From Henriciella marina DSM 19595 (lineage in GTDB: Bacteria; Pseudomonadota; Alphaproteobacteria; Caulobacterales; Hyphomonadaceae): a stretch of DNA of 64,000 bases. The stretch spans positions 1,550,001 to 1,614,000 of the forward strand of contig NZ_AQXT01000002.1 of the NCBI RefSeq assembly GCF_000376805.1. Direction: 5' to 3'. The translations under genes and the position numbers were made by a program. The notes under the pieces are model-generated. The model had not been told where the DNA came from, searched no databases, and saw only the letters and a list, made by a program, of their open reading frames with translations. This document shows positions 15,756 to 62,209 of this stretch, in pieces (position 1 is the stretch's first letter; each line of letters begins with the position of its first letter).

Positions 15756-18533
<2,778 letters not shown>

Positions 18534-18830
18534 CATTCGAAACTCGTGTGCGGAGGTGAATGCACGAGAACGTGCATCACATATCCGCTCACAATTTCAG
18601 ATCAGACATGTTGGTTTCTTGCAGACTGACCCTTTGGCGCAGGCTTTTTATGTCACACTCCGGTGACACCCGCGTTGTTCGGCTGAAGCTGGCATCACCA
18701 GACCCAATTTGGGTCGAGCGGCAATGCTAGCCGGATCAGTCTTTCCCTTACGATTTACAAACATCCCGGACACGAGGTCCGGAAACTTAGATCTTCTTTC
18801 ATTCGCTTTACTGCGCACACCACTCAAGAA

Positions 18831-18906
18831 TGGTGGAGCCTAGCGGGATCGAACCGCTGACCTCCTGAATGCAAATCAGGCGCTCTCCCAGCTGAGCTAA
18901 GGCCCC
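18831..18906 (-). tRNA. tRNA-Ala (TGC)
   Basis: A 76-nt cloverleaf with encoded CCA, starting GGGGCCTTAGCTCAGCTGG, anticodon TGC in the loop TTTGCAT and T arm GGTTCGATCC. It lies in the 16S-23S spacer, downstream of tRNA-Ile, as in most Proteobacteria. The 297 bp between it and 23S hold no gene that I can see. Confidence 0.97.
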
Positions 18907-18958
18907 AAAACCAGTCTTTAAGCTTCGGCATAGGGCCCGGCGCACTCCCTCTGGGTCG

Positions 18959-19035
<77 letters not shown>

Positions 19036-19211
19036 TTTTACCAGGACCCGGGGGCTCGCTGAACTATGCCGTCCAGCTGGCCGGCACGGCGAATGAAGGA
19101 AGAGAAACGAAGACGGCATAAACGACCGCATATGTTTTGCTGTCAGAGCAAGCTCTGCAGCGATTGTCTATAAGAACTTTCGAAGCCTGGCGAACCAGAC
19201 AATCAGAAAGC

Positions 19212-20673
<1,462 letters not shown>

Positions 20674-20950
20674 ATTGTCCGATCTGACGTAATCCGTCTC
20701 AGGAAATTGAGACGGCAATTGCTGATTGCAATTTGCGTTTTGACGGGAAACCCTTTTCACAAAACCACCGGCCGAAACCGACAGTAGTGAAAGGTATTTC
20801 CTTGAAACGCATCGTCATGATCGTATTGGAGCCCTGAGGCTCCGCTAGCCGCTCATGCCGCCTGCGTTTCTCTTCCATAATCCTACGATGTCAAACAACC
20901 GGGCCGAGGCCCTTTTTCCTCTGCGGCAGCAACCTGCCCCGCTTCGGAAG
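20674..20950 (-). other. rrn leader between promoter P1 and 16S
   Basis: The transcript from the nearest promoter would carry a leader of about 275 nt before 16S. Next to the 16S 5' end is a perfect 8-bp stem (CCGTCTCA at 20694-20701, TGAGACGG at 20708-20715), likely for processing or antitermination. No coding frame is credible here. A box A antiterminator was not pinned down. Confidence 0.5.
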
Positions 20951-20956
20951 TGGCGG

Positions 20957-20985
20957 CTTATATGGGCCACCGTTTTCCCCGTCAA
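20957..20985 (-). promoter_or_regulatory. rrn promoter P1 (nearest to 16S)
   Basis: Minus strand: TTGACG at 20985-20980, 17-bp spacer, TATAAG at 20962-20957. Near-consensus housekeeping sigma promoter, the best -10 of the five. Confidence 0.85.
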
Positions 20986-21114
20986 CACCCTTTTTTGCGC
21001 TTTCTGCAGAACTTCGCAGTGAACCGCGAAACCTGCAATTTTCAAAGCGCAGACCCTGTTACGAATGCCGCGAAAGCGGCCCGATCCAGGTGGGCGTCTT
21101 CAGGAGAGAGGCGG

Positions 21115-21143
21115 CATATATGGGGCCTACCAAACTCCGTCAA
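21115..21143 (-). promoter_or_regulatory. rrn promoter P2
   Basis: Minus strand: TTGACG at 21143-21138, 17-bp spacer, TATATG at 21120-21115. It lies 158 bp upstream of P1 in the next repeat unit. Confidence 0.82.
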
Positions 21144-21274
21144 CTCCCTTTTCTGCACCCTCTGCAGTAGACCGACACAAGGTCGAAAAACCGCAGATTT
21201 TCAAAGCACACCCGGTAGCTCGTGGACCGTTAGATCCGTTCGCTCCGGAAGGTTGTCTCCAAGAAGGAGAGCGG

Positions 21275-21303
21275 CTTCTATGGGCCACTCAACTCCCCGT
21301 CAA
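21275..21303 (-). promoter_or_regulatory. rrn promoter P3
   Basis: Minus strand: TTGACG at 21303-21298, 17-bp spacer, TAGAAG at 21280-21275, 160 bp upstream of P2. The downstream part of the unit has an inverted repeat TCTCC-N5-GGAGA. Confidence 0.78.
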
Positions 21304-21433
21304 CTCCCTTTTTTGCACCCTCTGCAGTAAGCCGACACAAGGCCGAAAACCGCAGAATTTCAAAGCGCATCCCGTAGCTCGTGGACCGTTAGATCCGCTT
21401 GCTCCGGAAGGTTGTCTCCAAGAAGGAGAGCGG

Positions 21434-21462
21434 CTTCTATGGGCCACTCAGCTCCCCGTCAA
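21434..21462 (-). promoter_or_regulatory. rrn promoter P4
   Basis: Minus strand: TTGACG at 21462-21457, 17-bp spacer, TAGAAG at 21439-21434, 159 bp upstream of P3 and almost identical to it in flanking sequence. Confidence 0.78.
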
Positions 21463-21591
21463 CAACCCTTCTGCACTCCGCTGCAGCTTTTGGGCAGAAG
21501 CCCCGAAACCGCAGAATAAGAAGCACAAACCGAAACCTCGAAGCTCTCGCGAACCCCGTTTTTCCGGTGGGTCTTTCCAGAAGAAGAGCGG

Positions 21592-21620
21592 CTTCTATTT
21601 GCCGGTCCCACTTCCGTCAA
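21592..21620 (-). promoter_or_regulatory. rrn promoter P5 (farthest from 16S)
   Basis: Minus strand: TTGACG at 21620-21615, 17-bp spacer, TAGAAG at 21597-21592, 158 bp upstream of P4. The unit is the most diverged in sequence but the promoter is kept. Confidence 0.76.
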
Positions 21621-21807
21621 CAACCCTTCTGCACTCCCCTGACAGTAGAAGCAGCTCGCACTGCCAACCTGCCATTTTGGCGCAAAACGCTGCCGTGTTG
21701 AACCGACTATTAACCGGCCCAGCAAGAACAGAGGCGTTTCAGATGGAACAGACCATATAGAATCTGTTCGCCTCTCTTGGCAAGCCCTAATATCACCCGA
21801 GAGGCGA

Positions 21808-22236
21808 TTACTGGCCCTTTATATACTCGACCATGGCGTCTGCCTCAGCGCGCGTTTCCTCGATCTTCCACTTAACGAGGTCACCGATCGAGATAATGCC
21901 GGCAAGCTTGCCGTCGCGCATGACCGGTAGATGGCGCACCCTGCGGTCGGTCATCCGGGCAAGGCACTGGTCCAGGCTCTCTGCCGGATTGGCTGTGATG
22001 ACACCGCGCGTCATGGATTCTTCGACACTCATATTGAGGGCCTCAGCCCCGTGGCGCGCGACCTGTCTCAGAATATCCCTTTCAGACAAGACACCTGCGA
22101 GATCGTCTCCGTTCACGGCAACAACGGCGCCGATGCGCGCATCATCGAGAAAACGTGCTGCATCGCCCAGCGTCTTTGACGCCTCTATCGTCAGGACCTC
22201 GCCACCCTTCATCTTGAGTATCTGCTCTATCAGCAT
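21808..22236 (-). CDS. CBS-domain pair protein
   Basis: A 142-residue cytoplasmic protein consisting of two CBS motifs: the first with VLTIEASKTLGDAARFLDDARIGAVVAV and LAGVLSERDILRQVA, the second with VITANPAESLDQCLARMTDRRVRHLPVM and LAGIISIGDLVKWKI. Such stand-alone pairs bind adenosine nucleotides and act as energy or redox sensors; partners are not evident here. The start at 22236 is chosen for the GGAGGA ribosome site six bases upstream; a longer frame to 22296 lacks one. It lies upstream of the rrn promoter array in the same direction, so a transcript that is not terminated would run into the rrn leader. Confidence 0.9.
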   Translation of the reverse strand: MLIEQILKMKGGEVLTIEASKTLGDAARFLDDARIGAVVAVNGDDLAGVLSERDILRQVARHGAEALNMSVEESMTRGVITANPAESLDQCLARMTDRRVRHLPVMRDGKLAGIISIGDLVKWKIEETRAEADAMVEYIKGQ

Positions 22237-22437
22237 GCCATCCTCCGTGTTTCTTTTTGTTTTGGTACATTCTGCATAACACACGCGCGCACTCACGCGA
22301 AGGAATCACCCCGAAAAGGTGGTCGGGCCGTTGACGCAATTCGGCACAAATCCCGCATTCCCGAGCGTATAATCCCCAGCATCGGCGGGGGAATGTTCCC
22401 CAAGGAGGCGAAAACCCGGCACAGCGCTCCCGCGAAT

Positions 22438-22453
22438 TGGCACACGCATTGCA
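22438..22453 (+). promoter_or_regulatory. Consensus sigma-54 promoter of hfaABD
   Basis: TGGCAC-N5-TTGCA, with the -24 GG and -12 GC elements separated by exactly 10 bp, matches the RpoN consensus throughout. Transcription should begin near 22464, about 26 bp before the hfaA ATG. An RpoN promoter needs an enhancer-binding protein; no obvious paired upstream dyad was identified. A TATAAT at 22368 lacks a partnered -35. Confidence 0.75.
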
Positions 22454-22489
22454 ACCGATCTCTCCATCAACCCCAAAAGGGATCGGCAG

Positions 22490-22906
22490 ATGAAAAACAT
22501 TATGTACCTTATCACCGGACTGGCCGGCTTCGCAGCAGCCGCAGGCATTGCGCCTGCGCCAGCCGCAAACGCCCAGGCAGCGTCCAGCGCGTCACAGTTT
22601 GAGCGCCCTTATGGTTTTGCCCCCGGACAAGAAAGCCAGCCGTTTACCGCAGCTTCACGCGATGCGAGTAATAACCGCGTCATTATCAATGGCTTGATCA
22701 ATGGCGGCACCGGACTTGGAACCGGCCTCTATACAGGCTGGGGACAGACGGAAGGCGCACCGGGCATGCTTGGATCCGGCACTGCAATCGGAAATCAGCT
22801 CAACGTCGTCACGAACGGTAACAACAACACCGTCATCATCGACTCTACGCAGATCAACAATGGCGACCAATCGGTCGTTCTCAATGGGGAGCTCGACCTC
22901 AAATGA
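22490..22906 (+). CDS. hfaA: Holdfast anchor protein HfaA
   Basis: Small secreted curlin-like subunit that, with HfaB and HfaD, fixes the polysaccharide holdfast to the cell pole. The 138-residue product has a signal peptide (residues 1 to about 29, ending ANAQA), then an Asn/Gly-rich part with spaced repeats such as NRVIINGLINGGTG, GNQLNVVTNGNNNTVII and NNGDQSVVLNG, resembling curlin amyloid strands. It is first in the operon, with a consensus sigma-54 promoter upstream, and its stop overlaps the hfaB ATG (ATGA). Confidence 0.9.
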   Translation: MKNIMYLITGLAGFAAAAGIAPAPAANAQAASSASQFERPYGFAPGQESQPFTAASRDASNNRVIINGLINGGTGLGTGLYTGWGQTEGAPGMLGSGTAIGNQLNVVTNGNNNTVIIDSTQINNGDQSVVLNGELDLK

Positions 22907-23901
22907 TTACTCTCGCCAAAGCAAAGAAACCTTTCGCCAAAAGGCTTTCGGGAACCGTTATGGCTGGCGCCATGCTCGCTTCAGGTTGCGTGTCACCAAT
23001 CGCTGGCCCGGGTGGCAACTATGCAAGCCCGATCGGCAACGCGCCGGTCACCGCGAACCCGACGCCCTATTCTGACGGTCTCGTCTGTATGGGTCATTAC
23101 TCGCGCCAGAGCGGTTATGCCGCCCCGCGAATCGCTGTTGGCCGAATTCTCGACTATACCGGCAAGGCAGACTTTGAAGGTGGCCGCCGCGTCACCCAGG
23201 GCGCATCGCTGATGGCGATCTCCGCCTTTGCGAAAGCCGGGGCCCGCCTGGTTGAGCGTTTTGACACCTCTGTCTCCGAGCTTGAGCTGAAATATGCCAA
23301 TAACCGCCTGATCGGCGACGATGTGGCCGAAGACTTCCGCCGCATCAATGCGGGCTCGATCCCGGGTTCGGACTATTACCTGATCGGCGGCATCACGGAG
23401 CTCAACTACAATATTCGCTCTGTCGGCGGTGAGGCCTTTGTCGGCGACACCGACGCGATGGACCCGAAAGGCTCCATTGGCGCCAAGCTTTATGTGATCA
23501 ATGTGGGCCTCGATCTTCGTCTCGTTGAGACCGAGAGCCTCGAAGTCGTCGACGTGATTTCCTACCAGAAGCAGATCATCGGCCGCGAAGTGTCCCTCGG
23601 CGTGTTCGATTTTGCCAATGGCAATGTGTTCGACATCGGTGTCGGCGGCCGCGCGCAGGAGCCTATCCAGCTCGCGATTCGCTCGGTTCTCGAACGGGCC
23701 GTCCTGGAAATGATGGCGAATCTCTATGCAGCGCCGACCTCGGATGTCTGTGCTCTGACAGCAGGTGGCATCTCCACCAACAGTGTCACCGGCGACTTCC
23801 GCCCGGCTGGCGCGCCACTTGAAGAGTATAACGGACCATCCCGTCAGTCTGTTTCGGCCTGGCACAATCGCCGCGACCCAGGCCTGCGCGGACGCAACTA
23901 G
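22903..23901 (+). CDS. hfaB: Holdfast anchor secretion lipoprotein HfaB (CsgG family)
   Basis: A 332-residue outer-membrane lipoprotein, homologue of the curli secretion pore CsgG, needed to export and stabilise HfaA and HfaD. The leader ends in lipobox LASGC with cysteine at residue 29. The CsgG-like core includes IAVGRILDYTGK, TQGASLMAISAFAKAGARLVERFD, the transmembrane hairpin region around residues 150-215 and AIRSVLERAVLEMMANLY near the end. A proline-rich tail of about 45 residues follows. It sits between hfaA and hfaD in the order known from Caulobacter. Confidence 0.92.
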   Translation: MITLAKAKKPFAKRLSGTVMAGAMLASGCVSPIAGPGGNYASPIGNAPVTANPTPYSDGLVCMGHYSRQSGYAAPRIAVGRILDYTGKADFEGGRRVTQGASLMAISAFAKAGARLVERFDTSVSELELKYANNRLIGDDVAEDFRRINAGSIPGSDYYLIGGITELNYNIRSVGGEAFVGDTDAMDPKGSIGAKLYVINVGLDLRLVETESLEVVDVISYQKQIIGREVSLGVFDFANGNVFDIGVGGRAQEPIQLAIRSVLERAVLEMMANLYAAPTSDVCALTAGGISTNSVTGDFRPAGAPLEEYNGPSRQSVSAWHNRRDPGLRGRN

Positions 23902-23942
23902 ATCCGCCGCAGGACCTTTTAGACCGCTTCATGGAGGCCAGA

Positions 23943-25241
23943 ATGCCCAAGACAGCAACAAGACTATCGGCCCTTTTCGCCATCGCCGTCTCTACATCGG
24001 CCATGGCAGCCGCTCAGGACTGGGAATACATCCCTTATATGGGTGACGATTCGGCAGCAGCCGACGCCCAGTCCAGCAGCACGCCTGCCACCGGGACGAT
24101 CGATCAGGTCCAGTTCGGCGATGTCTGGGCAGACATGGACGTCCAGCTTCCAGAGCACACACCAAACGGTGTTTCGACATCGACCACTGTCGGCAACCTC
24201 GCAAATGCGACGCGCCACGCCGGCGACATCGACAGCGAAGTCCGTCAGAGCTTTGATGCCACCTCGCGTGCCACCAACAGCGTTCGCGGCTATTCGGTCG
24301 GGACGGGCGTATCGACGACCACCGCTTATGCCAATGCATCGTCTGCTGGCACCAATTACGGCGCCAACAGCTCCTATGCACAGCAGGAGGCCGCAGGCTC
24401 GGTCGAGGCTAATAGCCGTATCGAGCTCTATCAGGCGAATCAGGTCGCAAGTGCCTCGACCGCTGTCGCCAACGTTTCGACCAACGACAATAATGACGGC
24501 TTCAGCATCGCTGACCAGACACAGTACAGCGCCGCTGACGTCACGTCGGAGACCGACGCGGACATGTGGCAGAACGGGACATCTGCGTCCTTCGCAACCA
24601 CAGCTGGCGGCAACGCATCGTCATCGACGGGCTATACCAGCACGAATTACAACCGCGCCCTTCAGAAGACCGAAGACGGCACCCGCATTTCCGGTTCGAC
24701 CGACGTCTATATGAAGGACGGTACGAACGTGACCGCCGCAACCAACAGCTTCGGCAACTCCGCCACGGTCCATAATGAGTGGGGTTATGCCACGCTCGGG
24801 ATCGACGGCGCGCCAACAAAGCAGGACAACCAGGCCGATGTCGACGCACAGTCCTATGTGACGCTCGATCACTGGAGCGGCTATGCCAATTCCAGCTCCT
24901 ACGGCGTCGGTAACTCTGCGCTCATTTCCAATGTCGGGTCTGACACAGTCATGTATGCCGACCAGTCCAACAGCGGGACCGTCTACAGCTATGCCAAGCT
25001 CGACGGCGCCTCCTGGACGGGCGGCACCGGCGTCGTGACGTCCACAGCTGTCGGTAACGCTGCAACCGCCACCGTCTGTAATTTCTGTAGCGAAGGCGCC
25101 GTTGGCGGCCGCGTCAATCAGGTGAATACGGGCGCGGTCATTGCCCAGGGCCAGGCGAACACGAACTATGGCGGAGGCATTTATGGCTCAGCCAGCGCAA
25201 TTGGCAACGCCGCCACTATTCAGTCGCTTGGCACGGAGTAA
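23943..25241 (+). CDS. hfaD: Holdfast anchor protein HfaD
   Basis: A 432-residue secreted adhesin of the holdfast anchor. It starts with a signal peptide (MPKTATRLSALFAIAVSTSAMAAA) and is otherwise a long run of short strands rich in Ala, Ser, Thr and Asn, with repeated motifs of the type TxVGNxAxA (GNLANAT, GNASSSTG, NSFGNSATVHN, VGNSALISN, VGNAATAT, IGNAATIQS), as expected for a beta-solenoid. The ATG at 23943 has GGAGG five bases upstream; an in-frame ATG at 23931 is part of that ribosome site. It ends the operon and is followed by a strong terminator. Confidence 0.9.
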   Translation: MPKTATRLSALFAIAVSTSAMAAAQDWEYIPYMGDDSAAADAQSSSTPATGTIDQVQFGDVWADMDVQLPEHTPNGVSTSTTVGNLANATRHAGDIDSEVRQSFDATSRATNSVRGYSVGTGVSTTTAYANASSAGTNYGANSSYAQQEAAGSVEANSRIELYQANQVASASTAVANVSTNDNNDGFSIADQTQYSAADVTSETDADMWQNGTSASFATTAGGNASSSTGYTSTNYNRALQKTEDGTRISGSTDVYMKDGTNVTAATNSFGNSATVHNEWGYATLGIDGAPTKQDNQADVDAQSYVTLDHWSGYANSSSYGVGNSALISNVGSDTVMYADQSNSGTVYSYAKLDGASWTGGTGVVTSTAVGNAATATVCNFCSEGAVGGRVNQVNTGAVIAQGQANTNYGGGIYGSASAIGNAATIQSLGTE

Positions 25242-25278
25242 ATCCAGCCCTGACGACTGAGGATCTGCCGATCCAAGG

Positions 25279-25308
25279 CCCCTGCCCTCGCAAGACGGCA
25301 GGGGTTTT
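25279..25308 (+). terminator. Terminator of hfaABD
   Basis: CCCCTGCC (25279-25286) pairs with GGCAGGGG (25297-25304), ten-base loop, followed by TTTT. It lies 37 bp after the hfaD stop. Confidence 0.82.
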
Positions 25309-25472
25309 GATTCGTGGGCCTATAATTTGGGTAGTCAGCCAGAGGAAAACCTGGCCTATCAGGGAGGCCTTGCCCCCCCTAGGGGTTTTACATAAGCCCA
25401 GATTTATCAGGCTGGCTGGCCTCGGCACAGCTTCGATTCGCCAATCTGCGCGCGCCGCCTAGATGGCCATTC

Positions 25473-25856
25473 ATGCTTACACGTCTTTTCCTCGCACTCA
25501 TCGCCATTCTCTTCACCGGTTTCGGGCTCTGGTCGCTGATCGACCCGATCGGCATGACCTCCCGCCTCGACGTAAATGTCAGCGGGCCGAACGCGCTGTT
25601 CGAGATGCGCGGCATATTTGGTGGGGTCAGCCTCGCGGCGGCCGGCCTGACAGCTGCCGGTGCCCTGATGCCAGCGCGCTACGAGCGCCCAGCGCTCTGG
25701 CTGCTTGTGGTGTATATGGGCGGCTACACGCTCGCCCGGCTCGTCTCGCTCATCGTTGGCGACAGCCCGACATTCAATGGCTGGGCCTTCGCAAGCTTCG
25801 AGGTTCTAAGTTTCATACTGGCGAGCCTCGCCCTTATCGCGCGCAAAAAACCCTAG
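25473..25856 (+). CDS. Small integral membrane protein, DUF4345-like
   Basis: A 127-residue protein with four predicted membrane helices (about residues 4-23, 45-65, 74-93 and 102-122) and little else; it resembles the DUF4345 family of small four-helix proteins, whose function is not known. The helix-1 region reads LFLALIAILFTGFGLWSLIDP and is followed by MRGIFGGVSLAAAGL. It is a single gene flanked by terminators on both sides. Confidence 0.72.
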   Translation: MLTRLFLALIAILFTGFGLWSLIDPIGMTSRLDVNVSGPNALFEMRGIFGGVSLAAAGLTAAGALMPARYERPALWLLVVYMGGYTLARLVSLIVGDSPTFNGWAFASFEVLSFILASLALIARKKP

Positions 25857-25859
25857 AAA

Positions 25860-25890
25860 AAAGCCCCGCCAGCAGAACTGGCGGGGCTTT
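25860..25890. terminator. Bidirectional terminator between DUF4345-like gene and TonB receptor
   Basis: A 13-bp perfect stem (AAAGCCCCGCCAG, loop CAGAA, CTGGCGGGGCTTT) with A and T tracts on both sides, so it can end both convergent transcripts. Confidence 0.9.
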
Positions 25891-25914
25891 TCATTCTGGT
25901 ATGTGGGTCAGAGC

Positions 25915-28446
25915 CTAGAAGTTGACCTTCAGCTCTGCGCCATACATGGCCGGAACGCCTGGATAGACGGCATTGGTGCCGGTCTGCTCAGGGACGCCAA
26001 AGGCGAGCATATTGTAGTACTCGTCGGTGATGTTCTCACCGAAGACCGAGAACTCCCACTGCCCATCGCGCGACTGGATGCCAACGCGTGCGCCGAAGAG
26101 CGCATACGCGTCATTATCGGTCAGGCCAGCTGACGTCACAGACAGTGCGGTCTCGGAGTTGTAACGCGCATTCACGTGGAACAGCGCTTCGAGGTTATCG
26201 GAGACGGGGTAGAGATAGGTCCCCGATGCCGTCACCACATGCTCAGGCACGTTGACCAGCTGCTCACCGCCGGGTGCCAGCAGCGTCAGTGCCCCGGTGC
26301 CAGATGGCACGAGGATGTCGCCCTGCCGCTCAGCCTTCGTATAGGCATAGCCGCCCTGGAAGGTCAGGCCGTCAGCCGGTGCGAACGATGTGTCGAGTTC
26401 CAGGCCGTAGCTTTCAACATCAGAGTTGAAGGTCCGGAAGTTCGTGCCCGTGAAGAGGTTCTCCTGGAAGTCGGTCACATCCTGATAGAATATGGCGCCG
26501 TTCAGCGTCGCATTCAGGTCCTGGAAGCTTGATTTCCAACCAATTTCAAAGGCGTCGACCGTTTCGGAATCGAATTGCAGGTCGGTCGGCTGTGGACCAT
26601 TGCCGCCAAACAGCACGCTGTCGAAACCGGAGCGGTCAAGGTTGTAACCGCCAGCCTTGTAGCCGCGCGAGTAGGACGCATAGGTCATGAAGTCCGGCGA
26701 GAACTCATAGGCGAGTTTCGCTGTGCCGCTGACCGTCGTTTCGTCGAACTTGTCGGAGTCAGAAACGCTGAACTCACTGTTCACGGCCGGGTTACAGACA
26801 AGAAGCGCAAGATCGCCAAGAGCAACTGCGACGCCAGGCTGGGCTGCGAAGAAGTTACATGGCGTGACATTGCCATCGAGGTCGTACTCGACCTCTTTTT
26901 CTTCGTAGTTGCCACGCACACCGACGGTCGCCGTCAGGCGATCGGTGATTTCGATTTCATTGTGCGTGAAGAGCGCGAAAGCGTTCGTCGTCTGCTCGAA
27001 ATCATCGGTGTCCTGACCCTGGCCCGGCTGGAAGCCCGGCACGAAGAACGGCACCGTGCCTGGCGTGCCCGGTGCTGCAGGAGCGCCGGTCAGCGGGTTG
27101 ATATTGCCAAGCAGGGACGGAACGACCGTGCCCGATGGGTCGAGGCTGCCGAAGATCTGGCCGCCAGCTGCACCGAACGCCACAAGGTCGGTATAGAGAT
27201 TGGCTTGCGTCCCGACGCGGATCGTGTCGGTATAGCTCGTCTCCTGGTTCATGTAGAACCCACCAACCAGCCAGTCGAGCCGGCCATAGGTGTCCTGCAG
27301 GCGAACTTCCTGGGTGAACGTCTTGTCGCCGATCATCGTGCCGTCGCGATAAGCGCGGTCGATGCCGGAAAAGTCGATGTCCTGGTCGCGCAGGGCGTCC
27401 CAGTCACGATAGGACGTGATGGTTGTCAGGTTCGCATCACCGAAGACGCGGTTGCGGTACTCAGCCGAGATACCCCATTCCTCGACATCGTCAGAGACAT
27501 CGCGGTTTGGCGAAATGGCCACTTTCAGATCTTCAGGATCGGCGGTCGGAATACCGACCAGGCCGAGACGCGCGGCGCCTGCATTGACGGCTGCGCCCAG
27601 TGGACCTGGGTTAAAGTTCACAGCGACACAGCAGTCTTCGCTGGTCTGGCCGTAATCAGCGATCACGCGAAGGCTGGCATCGCCTTCTTCAAACAGCATC
27701 TGGCCACGCATCAGGAAGCGGTTCAGATTGTTAAACTCACGGCCGCTGTTCACGTCGTCGATATAACCATCGCGCTCACGGCGTAGAAGATCGACACGGA
27801 CAGCCACATTGTCCGAAATCGGACCGGTGACCATCGCCTCGCCGCTATACATATTGTAGTTGCCGAAGCCGGCTTTCAGATAGGCCTCAGGCTCAAATTG
27901 AGGCTTGGCCGTGTTGATAGACACAACACCGGCTGAGGTGTTGCGGCCGAACAGCGTGCCCTGAGGGCCGCGCAGCACTTCGATGCTGGCAAGTTCCGGC
28001 ATTTCAGAGAGGGCAATACCCGTCTTCGTGCGAACAACGCCATCGATCAGGACGCCGACAGCTGGCTCAAAGCCTGGATTGTTCGAGCCGGTACCAACGC
28101 CGCGGATCGAGATGCTCGTGCCGGATGCTGCGGACTCAGACTGCGAAATCTGAACCGATGGTGCGATCTGCTCAATGTCATTCAGGCGGGCGACGCCTGT
28201 GTCTTCGAGAAGCGATGCGTCGAAGGCAGTCACCGAAACCGGCACATCCTGGACGGTCGTGCCGGACCGACGGGTCGCTTCGACAACAACAGCGTTCAGA
28301 CGGCGCTGGCCATCGTCTGCTTGCTCGGTTTCCTGCGCCGATGCGGACAGGACAGGGGTAGTCATCAGTGCGGCGAGGCCAACACCTGCGCAGAGCGAGA
28401 ACTTCATCGCCTGCGACTTTCTGGAAGGTCTGGGAAGGAACCTCAT
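25915..28446 (-). CDS. TonB-dependent outer-membrane receptor
   Basis: An 843-residue receptor with signal peptide (to about residue 38), a plug domain (VEATRRSGTTVQDVPVSVTAFD, IRGVGTGSNNPGFEPAVGVLIDGVVRT, IEVLRGPQGTLFGRNTSAGVVSI) and a 22-strand barrel ending in a terminal aromatic (ELKVNF). The plug blocks match the large alphaproteobacterial receptor group typified by proteins annotated as IroE-like or pesticin/FyuA-type, which take up varied substrates; the ligand cannot be told. The extracellular loops are long, one with many Pro and Gly (about residue 440-480). There is no adjacent TonB, regulator or enzyme to hint at the substrate. GGAG lies eight bases before the ATG. Confidence 0.93.
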   Translation of the reverse strand: MRFLPRPSRKSQAMKFSLCAGVGLAALMTTPVLSASAQETEQADDGQRRLNAVVVEATRRSGTTVQDVPVSVTAFDASLLEDTGVARLNDIEQIAPSVQISQSESAASGTSISIRGVGTGSNNPGFEPAVGVLIDGVVRTKTGIALSEMPELASIEVLRGPQGTLFGRNTSAGVVSINTAKPQFEPEAYLKAGFGNYNMYSGEAMVTGPISDNVAVRVDLLRRERDGYIDDVNSGREFNNLNRFLMRGQMLFEEGDASLRVIADYGQTSEDCCVAVNFNPGPLGAAVNAGAARLGLVGIPTADPEDLKVAISPNRDVSDDVEEWGISAEYRNRVFGDANLTTITSYRDWDALRDQDIDFSGIDRAYRDGTMIGDKTFTQEVRLQDTYGRLDWLVGGFYMNQETSYTDTIRVGTQANLYTDLVAFGAAGGQIFGSLDPSGTVVPSLLGNINPLTGAPAAPGTPGTVPFFVPGFQPGQGQDTDDFEQTTNAFALFTHNEIEITDRLTATVGVRGNYEEKEVEYDLDGNVTPCNFFAAQPGVAVALGDLALLVCNPAVNSEFSVSDSDKFDETTVSGTAKLAYEFSPDFMTYASYSRGYKAGGYNLDRSGFDSVLFGGNGPQPTDLQFDSETVDAFEIGWKSSFQDLNATLNGAIFYQDVTDFQENLFTGTNFRTFNSDVESYGLELDTSFAPADGLTFQGGYAYTKAERQGDILVPSGTGALTLLAPGGEQLVNVPEHVVTASGTYLYPVSDNLEALFHVNARYNSETALSVTSAGLTDNDAYALFGARVGIQSRDGQWEFSVFGENITDEYYNMLAFGVPEQTGTNAVYPGVPAMYGAELKVNF

Positions 28447-28587
28447 CTAACGTCTCCAAAAGTCTGTTTTATTATTTTTATGAGCCTCAGACGGACTCTC
28501 TGCCCCTTTAGCAGCGCCATGCAGCAATGCAACCCTGGAAGTCGCTAACTAAACAATCCGTCAGGGTGCAGCGCACAAACCGGAACG

Positions 28588-28613
28588 AAAAACACCGCGC
28601 AAATGTTGCGCGG
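28588..28613 (-). terminator. Terminator after the Cys/Gly-rich secreted protein gene
   Basis: On the minus strand CCGCGCAA pairs with TTGCGCGG (28595-28613, three-base loop), followed by TGTTTTT. It separates the upstream gene from the TonB receptor gene that follows in the same direction. Confidence 0.75.
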
Positions 28614-28664
28614 CGTCTCTCCCAGTCCGCGTCAGAGACGCGGCCCCACACTGAGCTATTTTCG

Positions 28665-29633
28665 CTAGTAGACGCCCTGGCCGACGCCACCATCAAAGAC
28701 CATGGCACGGCCAGCCGCCTGACGAACACGTTGAACTTCGCGCGTCACTTCTTTCATGACGGTGCGCGTCTTTGGAACGCAGACTTCTTCGGCGACGCGC
28801 GCTTCAACCACCTTGATGCCTGGGCCATAGCGGCGCAGGAGCGAGCGCTCGTTACAGTCGCGTTGAGGCGTTTGCGGGGCGCAAGTCAGATCGCCGCCCG
28901 GGCGGTGCACGAGGGCCTCGCCCTTGGAGCAGGCCATCGTCTGGCCGTGATCGAAGCTCGCATGTCCGTCTGCGACCTTGCCGAGGGTGACCTGAAGACG
29001 TGTGCCCGCAAGGCAGCGGAAGACTTCACCATTATAGGAAGAGGCAATATTCTGGCCGCCATCGACCTGGGAGGCCGGGTGAGGCGCGCCCATGTCATCA
29101 ATGCAGACAGCCTGTACGGCGCGGTAGGCCATGCGGTAGCTGACCTGATCGACGCAATATTCTTCGGTCGTCGGCACCTGCTCCGTCACGGTGTCGGTAT
29201 AGGTTTCCTCAGCGCCGCTGACGTTCAACGTGCCAATCGAGCTGACGCCGACCGGGGCCGGGCCGCCGAAACCACCACCGCCGCCTGCATAGGCAATGAC
29301 TTCGCTGGACGCAGAAGCGCCTGCGGTCACATTCAGATAGCTTTGCGCGGAGACGTTCAAATTGCCGCCATTCACATTCACGTTCGTGCCGCCGATTGTG
29401 ATGTTCGGACCAGCGACGTTCACGCCTGGGACATTGAGGCCATGGCCCTTACCGCCTTGGCAGCAGGCCGATCCATGACCACCGCCATTATAAGTCGGGG
29501 TCGGCGGCGGGGTCGGCTTGCAGGTGTTACAGCCGCCGCCGCCATTGCTGCCGGCCCAGGCAAGGCCTGACAGGGTGACGATAACTGCGGCGCCAGCGCC
29601 GGCAAACAGACTGTGTCGTGTTGAAACGCGCAT
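28665..29633 (-). CDS. Unrecognised secreted Cys/Gly-rich protein with Asn-Val repeats
   Basis: I do not recognise this 322-residue protein. It has a clear signal peptide (residues 1 to about 28, ending LAWAG), then a Gly/Pro/His stretch with two cysteine pairs (GCNTC, ACC). Residues about 65-100 hold spaced motifs NVPGVNVAGPNITIGG and NVNVNGGNLNV, which look like a short beta-solenoid or amyloid-type repeat. The C-terminal 180 residues contain seven more cysteines at even spacing (YCVD, VCIDD, FRCLAG, ACSKG, TCAPQ, DCNE, VCVPK), suggesting disulfides, and end in a Lys/Arg-rich helix. It is a single gene with its own terminator. A cell-surface or stalk/holdfast matrix protein is a guess from composition only. 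Confidence 0.75.
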   Translation of the reverse strand: MRVSTRHSLFAGAGAAVIVTLSGLAWAGSNGGGGCNTCKPTPPPTPTYNGGGHGSACCQGGKGHGLNVPGVNVAGPNITIGGTNVNVNGGNLNVSAQSYLNVTAGASASSEVIAYAGGGGGFGGPAPVGVSSIGTLNVSGAEETYTDTVTEQVPTTEEYCVDQVSYRMAYRAVQAVCIDDMGAPHPASQVDGGQNIASSYNGEVFRCLAGTRLQVTLGKVADGHASFDHGQTMACSKGEALVHRPGGDLTCAPQTPQRDCNERSLLRRYGPGIKVVEARVAEEVCVPKTRTVMKEVTREVQRVRQAAGRAMVFDGGVGQGVY

Positions 29634-29838
29634 GAGGTGTCTCCGTGGGTCTTCCCCTGAGGAGAAGCACAGAGCATGCCATTTCTCGCTTCATTCGCGA
29701 AAAATGTTCCGATGACGGAAATTCGGGTGTCCCAGGGCGGTGTTTGAACTGGCCCATTGCTTGCGAAGTGGGAGGGCGACCGCTCGGCGGCCGACAGACG
29801 CTCAACAGATTGACTGACGATAATAGAAGCAGGCTTAC

Positions 29839-30387
29839 ATGCTCGATAGAACACTTCATCCTAACAGCCAGACGCTGCTTTCAGCCTGGCAGCGCATGAG
29901 TATTGCTGCGTCTGATGTGCCGACAGGCCCGACGACACGGGATCATCCGGACCTGATCGAGCGTCTCTTTGTGATCCAGCAGGAAGGCGAAGACCAGTGG
30001 CTCTTCCGCACCGCGGGTGTTCAACTCCAGTCGTCGCTTGGCCGCGAACTGGCCGATCATGACTTCCTTGGTGTCTGGACCGGGCATGACCGGGCAATGC
30101 TGTCTCATCTTCTGAAGATGATTTCGCTGGAAAAACTGCCAGGTATTGTTCGCGCACGAGGCGAGTCGCTGACTGGTGAACGCGTCGATATCGAGATGAC
30201 GCTGGCACCGCTGGCAAAACCGCCGCACCAGGAAACCGGCACGCGGATCCTGGGCCTCTATCAATCGCTTGGCGGCGAAACCTTCTTGCGCGGGCGACCG
30301 GTCTGGCGCCATCGCCTGACCGCTATCTACCCGCCTGATACGCGCAAGAGCGAACCTCGCCTCAAACTGGTGGCGAGCAACGACTAG
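29839..30387 (+). CDS. PAS-domain protein (PAS_5 family)
   Basis: A 182-residue cytoplasmic protein resembling the alphaproteobacterial PAS_5 family ([14 protein letters not shown] at the start, [19 protein letters not shown], then [27 protein letters not shown]). In this family a single sensory PAS fold makes up almost the whole protein, and no output domain is present; members are found among motility and cell-cycle signalling proteins. The stop overlaps that of the convergent gamma-carbonic anhydrase gene by four bases. It is transcribed on its own. Confidence 0.78.
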
Positions 30388-61122: not shown

Positions 61123-62209
61123 GACCTTAAAACGCCAATTCCGCGGGCGACGTTCCAAGGCGCTCGCCATCATCGCAGACATTGCACCTGCCAAAACACC
61201 GCCCCGTCATCCCTCGCCCTTCTGCTCAAATCGTCGTCATCCCGGACGCACAGCGATCCGGGACCCAGTTGGGTTGAGCGCGAAGCATCATCTGTGGGAT
61301 AACTCCATTTCATCCCCACCCTCTCAGGCTCAGCCATACTACTGCCATCTCATCCCCAGACAGGGCGGTCCGGACCGACCGGGTGGGGATGGTTCTCGCG
61401 GCGCTGGAGCCTGCCGGAAAGACCCCGGCAGGCTTACAGCAAAGCGGGAGGGCCTGCGGTCGGCAGAGATGCCAGCCGCAGGTGGAGTGCGAAGATGACC
61501 GATGCTGCCGGCAGGGCGTAACGCCCCTGCCAATGGCGGTGCGGCGTCATGTGGGCTCAGGAGCGCGGCTGGCAGGCCAGTCGCCGTGACCATACCGAGA
61601 CGGGCCGGGAGTGGGACACCCGAACGGCCAGATCTTCGCAGGGCGCGTCCTGAACGCACGCTCTACAGCCACGCCGAAAGGCTGGCATTACTTATCGGCG
61701 TCCGCTCAGGACGCGCCCGGCCCTGTCACTGACTGGCAGACGACACGTACCGCCAGCGGGAGAGCCCTGCATGGCGCTTTTGGTGCAGGGGGCGATCAAG
61801 AGGCGCTCATCCTGAGCGAAGTCGAAGGACGATCGCCGGGAATGACCGAGATAGGCATCAAAAACCATTCCCCTCTCCTTGGGGAGAGGGGTCAGGGGCG
61901 AGGGGGAACCACACCAGATGCATCCGCCACCCTCGCAGTGATGCGAGTCCCGGACATCACGCGCCGACTGGCGGCGCCCCCTCATCCCCGGCCCTTCTCC
62001 CCAAGGAGAAGGGAGGTTTGCAGCCTTGAGCGCGATCCATCGCGAAGCGGGGATCAAAAACTGCGAAGCCTCGAACAGGCTCCATCGCGAAGCGCGGAAC
62101 CAAAAAACTCAACATGCCCAGCCACACCTGACAAAGACGCGCTTTTGCCTTATATGCCGCGGCCACCACAAACTTTCTGCTGCGGGCCTTGAACCCGCTG
62201 GAGGAGAAT
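61123..62209. repeat. Gene-free 1.1-kb region dense in hairpins and short repeats
   Basis: No credible gene is present. Strong hairpins or inverted repeats: TCCCGGA/TCCGGGA (61240-61263); AGCCTGCCGG/CCGGCAGGCT (61408-61434); CCTGCGG/CCGCAGG (61453-61482); a near-perfect GGCAGGGCG/CGCCCCTGCC stem near 61510-61532; GGGCGCGTCCTGA/TCAGGACGCGCCC, 13 bp, with an inner 7-bp stem (61641-61718); CCCCTCTCC/GGAGAGGGG (61870-61891); CCCTTCTCC/GGAGAAGGG (61992-62013). The 14-mer TCCATCGCGAAGCG occurs at 62036 and 62081. The outer parts look like REP/BIME-type elements; the 61400-61720 part may be a structured RNA. The stretch 61725-61800 holds nothing I can identify. Confidence 0.7.

Follow-up and report, generated by a model that had tools for sequence, protein, structure and literature searches.

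Candidate tandem promoters and a predicted leader RNA module upstream of the single rrn operon of Henriciella marina

The rrn operon and its upstream region

The window analyzed here, a stretch of 64,000 nucleotides from Henriciella marina, contains a ribosomal RNA operon whose genes lie on the minus strand in the order 16S, tRNA-Ile, tRNA-Ala and 23S. The 16S rRNA gene (19220-20673, minus strand, Rfam RF00177) is the single match in the genome, and the two tRNA genes occupy the 16S-23S spacer (18831-19035, minus strand). The assembly has 3,277,765 bases (3.28 Mb) in 2 contigs, and its one 16S match indicates a single rrn operon; the tandem units that the initial annotation had placed before an rrn operon, with the advice to check for other copies, therefore precede the only one. 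Upstream of these units lies a CBS-domain gene (21808-22296, minus strand, identified by Pfam PF00571 and an open reading frame, start codon unsure), which has the same direction as rrn. Three genes adjoining it on the plus strand (22490-25241) comprise one for a CsgG-like protein (PF03783, E 5e-12) between frames of 138 aa and 436 aa, for which Pfam gave no match at E≤0.01. The trio is reminiscent of the hfa (holdfast-anchor) genes of Caulobacter.

Five candidate promoters of the form TTGACG-N17-TANNNG, all on the minus strand and facing 16S, were located by exact pattern matching: P1 (TTGACG-N17-TATAAG, 20957-20985), P2 (-10 TATATG, 21115-21143), P3 (TAGAAG, 21275-21303), P4 (TAGAAG, 21434-21462) and P5 (TAGAAG, 21592-21620). 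Start-to-start gaps from P5 to P1, far to near, were 158, 159, 160 and 158 bp. The initial annotation had described five such sites, 158-160 bp apart and in the same direction, whose -10 elements improve towards 16S, and both points were borne out, the -10 order from far to near being TAGAAG three times, then TATATG and TATAAG. Each of the five sites has a TTGAC -35, a -10 beginning with TA and a spacer of 17, within the range of 16-18 of sigma-70-type promoters. The last -10 position is G, not T, in all five, and the array was missing from a generic sigma-70 scan because that scan demands T at this position.

Within the window, the plus strand had no match to this pattern. Genome-wide it had 9 matches, the 5 of the array and 4 scattered ones, and the reversed pattern, which served as control, matched 16 times in the genome; the clustering before rrn is far above chance. 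The sole genome match of TTGAC-N17..19-TATAAG was P1. When the segments between promoters were compared, P4 to P3 and P3 to P2 had 93% identity, with 55-66% in the other nine segment pairs. When units were instead cut from -110 to +45 relative to each -35, identity was 84% for P3 and P2 and 72% for P4 and P3.

We also detected a sixth promoter-like site, designated Pd (TTGCCA-N18-TATATG, 21754-21783, minus strand), about 160 bp upstream of P5; neither this site nor the RNA modules described below appear in the initial annotation. It consists of a -35-like hexamer, TTGCCA (21778-21783), found by pattern match, and a -10-like hexamer, TATATG (21754-21759), with a spacer of 18 and flanked by GAACAGA and TCTGTTC. 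Judged by their sequence, the array sites and Pd are very probably real promoters. On the 16S side, the leader carries an element, GTTTGACATCGTAGG (20882-20896, minus strand), 60 nt past the -10 of P1, which looks like a boxA; a similar element is present in family loci. The TTGACAT within this stretch was considered as a further array promoter and rejected, as it recurs in family loci as the boxA-like element and has no evident -10. In the P1 leader (20882-20990, minus strand), two small hairpins are followed by GGTTGTTTGACAT, much like the hairpin-GGGTTGTTGACG junction seen in the array units, and the -35 region may double as a boxA-like RNA signal.

The array in related genomes

A 16S match was found in 15 of the 29 genomes in a search of the genus (own genome included), 14 of which had one match and one of which had the gene in two pieces. 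The same-genus set consisted of 14 loci (L001-L014), and L015 represents one further genome of the genus, with 5 units. The numbers of TTGACG promoters in L001 to L014 were 5, 2, 2, 2, 2, 4, 5, 4, 3, 4, 5, 5, 3 and 4, respectively. Array sites were in phase throughout these loci, and the nearest promoter was TATAAG in all 14, at -319 to -351 from 16S. Spacing was 154-162 bp except for one interval of 494 bp in L010, which contains 304 N and would fit two more units, giving perhaps 6 in that array. A locus of Henriciella algicola (L078) shares this 304-N gap at the middle units together with the four listed promoters. Such a gap means that draft genomes may understate copy number. Two single-contig genomes fit the general pattern with 5 units (G016) and 2 units (G008), which makes misassembly an improbable source of the array.

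Two comparison genera, g4 and g3, were taken as Hyphomonas and Hirschia, respectively, because their promoter strings match those of named loci. Matching strings were found for L063 (Hyphomonas atlantica) and L026 and for L068 (Hirschia maritima) and L038, and within Henriciella for L067 (H. pelagia) and L013 and for L084 (H. marina) and L008. Hyphomonas-type genomes had 1-4 such promoters with a spacing of 249-259, 196, 150-151 or 136-139 bp, and genomes of the Hirschia type, a genus with two rrn operons, had 3-5 promoters with a spacing of 144-171 bp. Since spacing differs within and between genera (154-162 bp in Henriciella, 136-259 bp in the others), both the length and the helical phase of the interval vary. 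The view that the even repetition is itself functional, as a ruler or through helical phasing, was therefore rejected; judging from these sequences, the regular intervals appear to be a remnant of tandem duplication.

A tree of 90 units, from which Hirschia and L005 were left out, placed the outermost units from ten loci of Henriciella in one clade (support 100/99) and ten P1 units in another (98/99). Nine P2 units formed a weaker clade (88/88), and three early-branching species with two promoters fell elsewhere. Middle units varied between species, with P2 and P3 of L012 being sisters (100/99), and the upstream units of Hyphomonas formed separate groups. The simplest reading of this tree, many inner forks of which are weakly supported, is that Henriciella and several Hyphomonas groups amplified their units separately. 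Together with the 93% identity of the two adjoining segments, the tree agrees with the earlier suggestion that the units arose by amplification, and points to a recent duplication of a middle segment.

These data also bear on the idea that slippage or unequal recombination simply copied the units, the extra promoters being tolerated and not selected. The period differs by genus, copy number is variable, two adjoining segments are nearly identical, and some middle units in other species have a poor -10 (TAAGAG, spacer 17), which implies that not every unit need be active. However, old, diverged units still have in-phase promoter sites and intact RNA pairing (see below), and arrays occur in Henriciella, several Hyphomonas groups and Hirschia. 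We consider neutral duplication unlikely.

The Pd-type pattern (TTG...GAAC...TATAT) was present in 29 of 44 family loci. Four loci (L018, L021, L022 and L028) had no match to this pattern, yet contained a promoter-like site where the module described below begins. In the 250-bp units of Hyphomonas (L026, L024, L027 and L023), the copied Pd seems to be without the TATAT -10, while the RNA module and main promoter are retained.

A predicted RNA module between the promoters

Each inter-promoter gap corresponds to one predicted RNA module of ~140 nt (about 120-145), in which two hairpins are closed into a three-way junction; in the window, each module runs from a promoter's -10 into the -35 that follows. 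We built a covariance model, R1, from five Henriciella segments with a hand-written three-way junction (a closing GACCC/GGGUU helix and hairpins C and A). At E≤0.1, R1 had matches in 40 family loci, 87 segments in all, and a second model, R2, was rebuilt from these segments. R2 detected exactly five modules in the window, all on the minus strand, in the leaders of Pd, P5, P4, P3 and P2 and none after P1. The module of the Pd leader extends from the Pd -10 to the P5 -35 (21615-21759; R2 E 3.7e-14, R1 E 8.6e-4). It is followed by the modules from P5 to P4 (21457-21597; R2 E 1.4e-27, the same stretch of L001 being an R1 seed), P4 to P3 (21298-21439; R1 E 1.4e-15, R2 E 2.3e-17), P3 to P2 (21138-21280; R1 E 1.3e-15, R2 E 2.7e-17) and P2 to P1 (20980-21120; R1 E 6.2e-13, R2 E 5.3e-20). 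An additional R1 match at 61856-62022 (minus strand, E 6e-4), which consists of GC-rich nested inverted repeats, was gone with R2 and was probably due to chance. Rfam at gathering score found rRNA and tRNA only, and no match to the module, in 18000-30000, and at E≤5 its only hit in 20850-21850 was mir-1231 on the opposite strand, which scored 20.3 bits where the cut-off is 80.

If every promoter precedes a folded RNA of ~120 nt, each unit might be a small-RNA gene whose link to rrn is incidental. However, there is no U run after the last hairpin of the module, where AAAAAAGGG or a similar sequence is found instead, and the five matches of R2 in the H. marina genome at E≤0.05 all lie within the array, which makes independent small-RNA genes highly improbable.

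In the R1 alignment, double changes occurred in all 40 pairs, and 86.5% of cells could pair (63.8% in shuffled alignments). The covariation score was 0.490 compared to 0.185 in shuffled alignments (sd 0.006), and did not exceed 0.071 when the partner was slid by 1-3 columns. Because the alignment was fitted to a hand-written structure, and hence leans towards itself, we regard this covariation as support and not as proof.

R2 had 108 matches in 40 family loci, mostly its training set, with at least one in all 40; L018, L028 and Hirschia had weak matches, with E from 1e-5 to 9e-3. Named genomes were then scanned with a conserved leader pattern, which yielded 50 loci, mostly annotated as Hyphomonas, Henriciella, Hirschia or Hyphomonadaceae, and R2 had 99 matches in 48 of these, many being of the same species and overlapping the training loci. 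The other two, L069 and L085, had only 110 and 106 nt of upstream sequence, respectively. When 150 Caulobacterales genomes were searched with stricter filters, matches occurred in 29, all of them Hyphomonadaceae and 8 outside the training loci; at least two genomes of the family, G014 and G103, had no R2 match in this search. All 29 family modules inspected end in TTGACG. Modules of the 250-bp Hyphomonas units, except for the last, start at an apparent copy of Pd that has no -10.

In 70 rrn loci of other families, R2 gave 5 weak matches (E 0.012-0.98), all on the sense strand and upstream of rrn. Four of the five end at a promoter -35: L119 at -533, L160 at -320, L156 at -379 and L130 at -381, the -35-like TTGCAA of L130 being our own reading. 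By these matches, a divergent form of the module likely exists elsewhere in the order, although this is not proven. L119 and L160, which belong to another family of the order, also have tandem candidate rrn promoters (four in L119 by a loose pattern), and in their predicted fold the closing helix runs into the -35 itself.

For fold tests, we used 62 non-redundant units; L015-L017 and L037 were dropped before units were counted, L015 and L016 because they are pieces of one genome and L037 because it has 33 nt upstream. The remaining dropped locus, L017 (genome G059), is a second, foreign-looking 16S on another contig, without the leader or promoters of the family, and is possibly a contaminant. 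In a sliding fold scan of the 62 units, mean z peaked from -62 to -10 relative to the -35 (-2.25), around the -10 (-1.67) and in the early leader (-1.2, or -1.8 from the view of the next unit). Hairpin A, which spans -66 to -8 upstream of the -35, had a mean MFE of -19.4 in sense and -12.9 in antisense orientation (z -2.82 vs -1.50). The sense strand was lower in 59 of 62 units (Wilcoxon p 1.3e-8, a value that is too small because the units are related), and after thinning to 38 units it was more stable in 36 (z -2.70 vs -1.44). Region B (around the -10) showed a slight sense bias, in 40 of 62 units and in 27 of 38 after thinning. GNRA or YNCG tetraloops were present in 9 of 63 sense loops of A, 1 of 68 antisense loops and 19 of 841 loops of shuffled sequences. 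Mismatches in A comprised 80 G-T and 29 A-C (189 and 120 in shuffles), and those in C comprised 56 and 34 (shuffles 176 and 132).

When halves of a hairpin were exchanged between units, the energy of A changed from -19.4 to -13.6 kcal/mol, a loss of 5.8 (z -15.5); that of B changed from -14.1 to -12.1 kcal/mol (z -6.9) and that of C from -18.7 to -17.3 kcal/mol (z -5.7). The swap was not significant for C in 23 units of the Hyphomonas group (z -0.6). The hairpin finder behind these mismatch counts, restricted to Watson-Crick pairs, gave a modest excess for A (6.61 vs 5.73 in shuffled sequences), and 18% of units exceeded the 95th percentile of the shuffled set. RNAalifold predicted no pairs on a MAFFT alignment of 52 units, in our opinion because the hairpins shift in register; for 26 inter-promoter segments of Henriciella it predicted 12 pairs, of which 7 had double changes. 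Hirschia units fold weakly in hairpin A. Hirschia was excluded from alignment A1; TTGACG is invariant in A1 because units were chosen by TTGACG and a loose -10 rule.

The dyads could in principle be DNA-level signals, such as cruciforms or regulator sites, and not RNA. Mismatches in B showed little strand preference (33 G-T and 31 A-C; 110 and 83 in shuffles), and some promoters outside the family contain similar dyads, both of which would fit a DNA signal. However, hairpin A is strongly sense-biased, and a DNA signal predicts A and B at Pd as well, where both are weak on average. Among 15 non-redundant Pd sites, region A upstream had a mean z of -0.64 and was above -2 in 12; the three below -2 were L023, L132 and L133. 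Region B at Pd had a mean z of -0.63 and was below -2 in two of the 15, one of which is the Pd of the window. The leader of Pd itself carries hairpin C (z -2.60 sense vs -1.05 antisense). Since hairpin A is mostly weak or absent upstream of Pd while the Pd leader has C, the structures appear to act as RNA in read-through transcripts, and a DNA-level role is very unlikely. At 36 rrn promoters outside the family, mean z was -0.53 for A (4 below -2) and -0.57 for B (5 below -2), and the early leader was structured (z -1.70, 14 below -2). We also considered whether the -10 dyad is a DNA device common to all alphaproteobacterial rrn promoters, for which these 36 promoters give a weak case, with the dyad at z 2.9 (as high in 1 of 300 re-deals) and the fold of B as above.

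Read-through regions of five genomes folded with z from -5.3 to -10.0. Such values would suit a generic shield, that is, folded RNA that keeps Rho and RNases off a long untranslated leader until boxA is made. However, the paired fraction was 0.67-0.71, compared to 0.64-0.68 in shuffled sequences, and the longest unpaired runs were 8-13 nt, compared to 12-15 nt, which weakens this idea, and we consider it improbable. As sequences of this composition fold anyway and pairing is barely above that of shuffles, it is the specific architecture that seems to be selected. Given the models and fold tests, we regard it as highly probable that the module is an RNA structure under selection.

Another role for such a structure would be processing, in which RNase III or another RNase cuts the leaders so that the same short precursor results from all promoters. 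rRNA precursors are commonly cut in stems, the module places long double-stranded RNA in every inter-promoter leader, and R2 finds none after P1. However, two separate hairpins joined in a conserved three-way junction go beyond what a cleavage stem requires, and we view processing as a possible but rather doubtful function of the module.

Proposed mechanism and comparison with known systems

The reading that we favor, and think somewhat likely, is that the region provides multi-promoter control of the single rrn operon: promoter and leader RNA would have been duplicated together, the array would load polymerase and the modules would aid its passage. The ancestral layout may have been Pd, RNA module, P1, leader and 16S, with two promoters, and tandem duplication of the promoter with its leader RNA module in Henriciella would have led to five sigma-70-type promoters plus Pd. 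With several promoters, the lone rrn operon would receive more polymerases than a single promoter could supply, and it seems somewhat probable that the array raises rRNA output, as the initial annotation had plausibly supposed. Polymerases from Pd and P5-P2 would have to cross 1-5 further promoters before the boxA-like element, and the module, remade after each upstream promoter, would keep elongating complexes or transcripts competent for this passage. In a version that resembles the put RNA of phage HK022, the nascent RNA would counter pausing and termination of the very polymerase that makes it. Among the roles of the module we rank this one first as most likely, followed by RNA processing by RNase III, although put-like action, suggested by analogy, is itself tentative. 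Somewhat more doubtful is the broader proposal that the modules represent a new cis-acting leader RNA family, co-duplicated with promoters, which would modify polymerase or recruit a factor to cross occupied rRNA promoters and would be a cellular counterpart of put.

The locus touches on two open questions, namely how a bacterium with a single rrn operon makes enough rRNA and how upstream polymerases cross occupied downstream promoters. Named marine species offer a natural graded series, from two promoters up to about six, all separated by the same module, in which promoter number, read-through and leader RNA could be tested directly. If the proposal is true, a put-like module family would make long tandem promoter arrays workable.

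We know of no repeated leader RNA at the P1-P2 promoters of E. coli rrn operons. These operons have two promoters before 16S (PMC5179076), compared to the five plus Pd in Henriciella. In mycobacterial rrnA, promoter number is described as varying by species, with two in M. tuberculosis and five in M. chelonae, and duplication is invoked (PMC10218544); five rrn promoters are also mentioned for M. fortuitum (PMC2443159). Thus, of the initial view that a five-fold array is unusual, rarity stands, but there is a precedent in rrnA. Like the "hypervariable multiple promoter region" of rrnA, the Henriciella array combines several promoters, a low-copy rrn and a species-variable number (2-5 in L001-L014), and its promoters are related by duplication, as indicated by the unit tree and the 93% segment identity. 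In contrast, units in Henriciella are regular repeats that include leader RNA, and the available text of the rrnA account mentions no inter-promoter RNA module (PMC10218544). Tandem copies of a core promoter, whose number is linked to rDNA transcription and growth, are reported for the rDNA intergenic spacer of Drosophila (PMC1215480). These spacer promoters, like the Henriciella array, precede rRNA genes, but serve RNA polymerase I and multi-copy rDNA, and the likeness is an analogy only.

The put RNA of HK022 is described as a cis-acting RNA of two stem-loops which suppresses intrinsic and Rho-dependent termination as well as backtracking, and putL lies directly downstream of its promoter (PMC9378689). 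The Henriciella module is likewise promoter-proximal and, as predicted by the R1 and R2 models and covariation, has two stem-loops. However, it is longer than phage put (~70 nt), matches in the window and in most family loci measuring ~120-145 nt, and has a closing helix. A further trait of put RNA is that it binds the zinc-binding domain of the beta-prime subunit. With regard to the promoters, CarD is reported to be needed for full activity of those rRNA promoters of R. sphaeroides that do not have T at -7 (PMC8407463). The five array sites are without T at -7, as are most alphaproteobacterial promoters, and would belong to this class. They resemble CarD-activated alphaproteobacterial promoters in the TTGAC -35 and in a -10 ending in G, and the genome encodes CarD homologues (two matches to PF02559, in frames of 180 aa and 1150 aa). 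Unlike other promoters of the CarD type, they form a tandem array with leader modules. A regular array with a co-duplicated RNA module was not found by title and abstract start among the matches listed for open-licence papers. Tandem rrn promoters are of a known kind, and it is the distal Pd site and the conserved RNA modules, more than the promoter array, that are the novel part of this locus.
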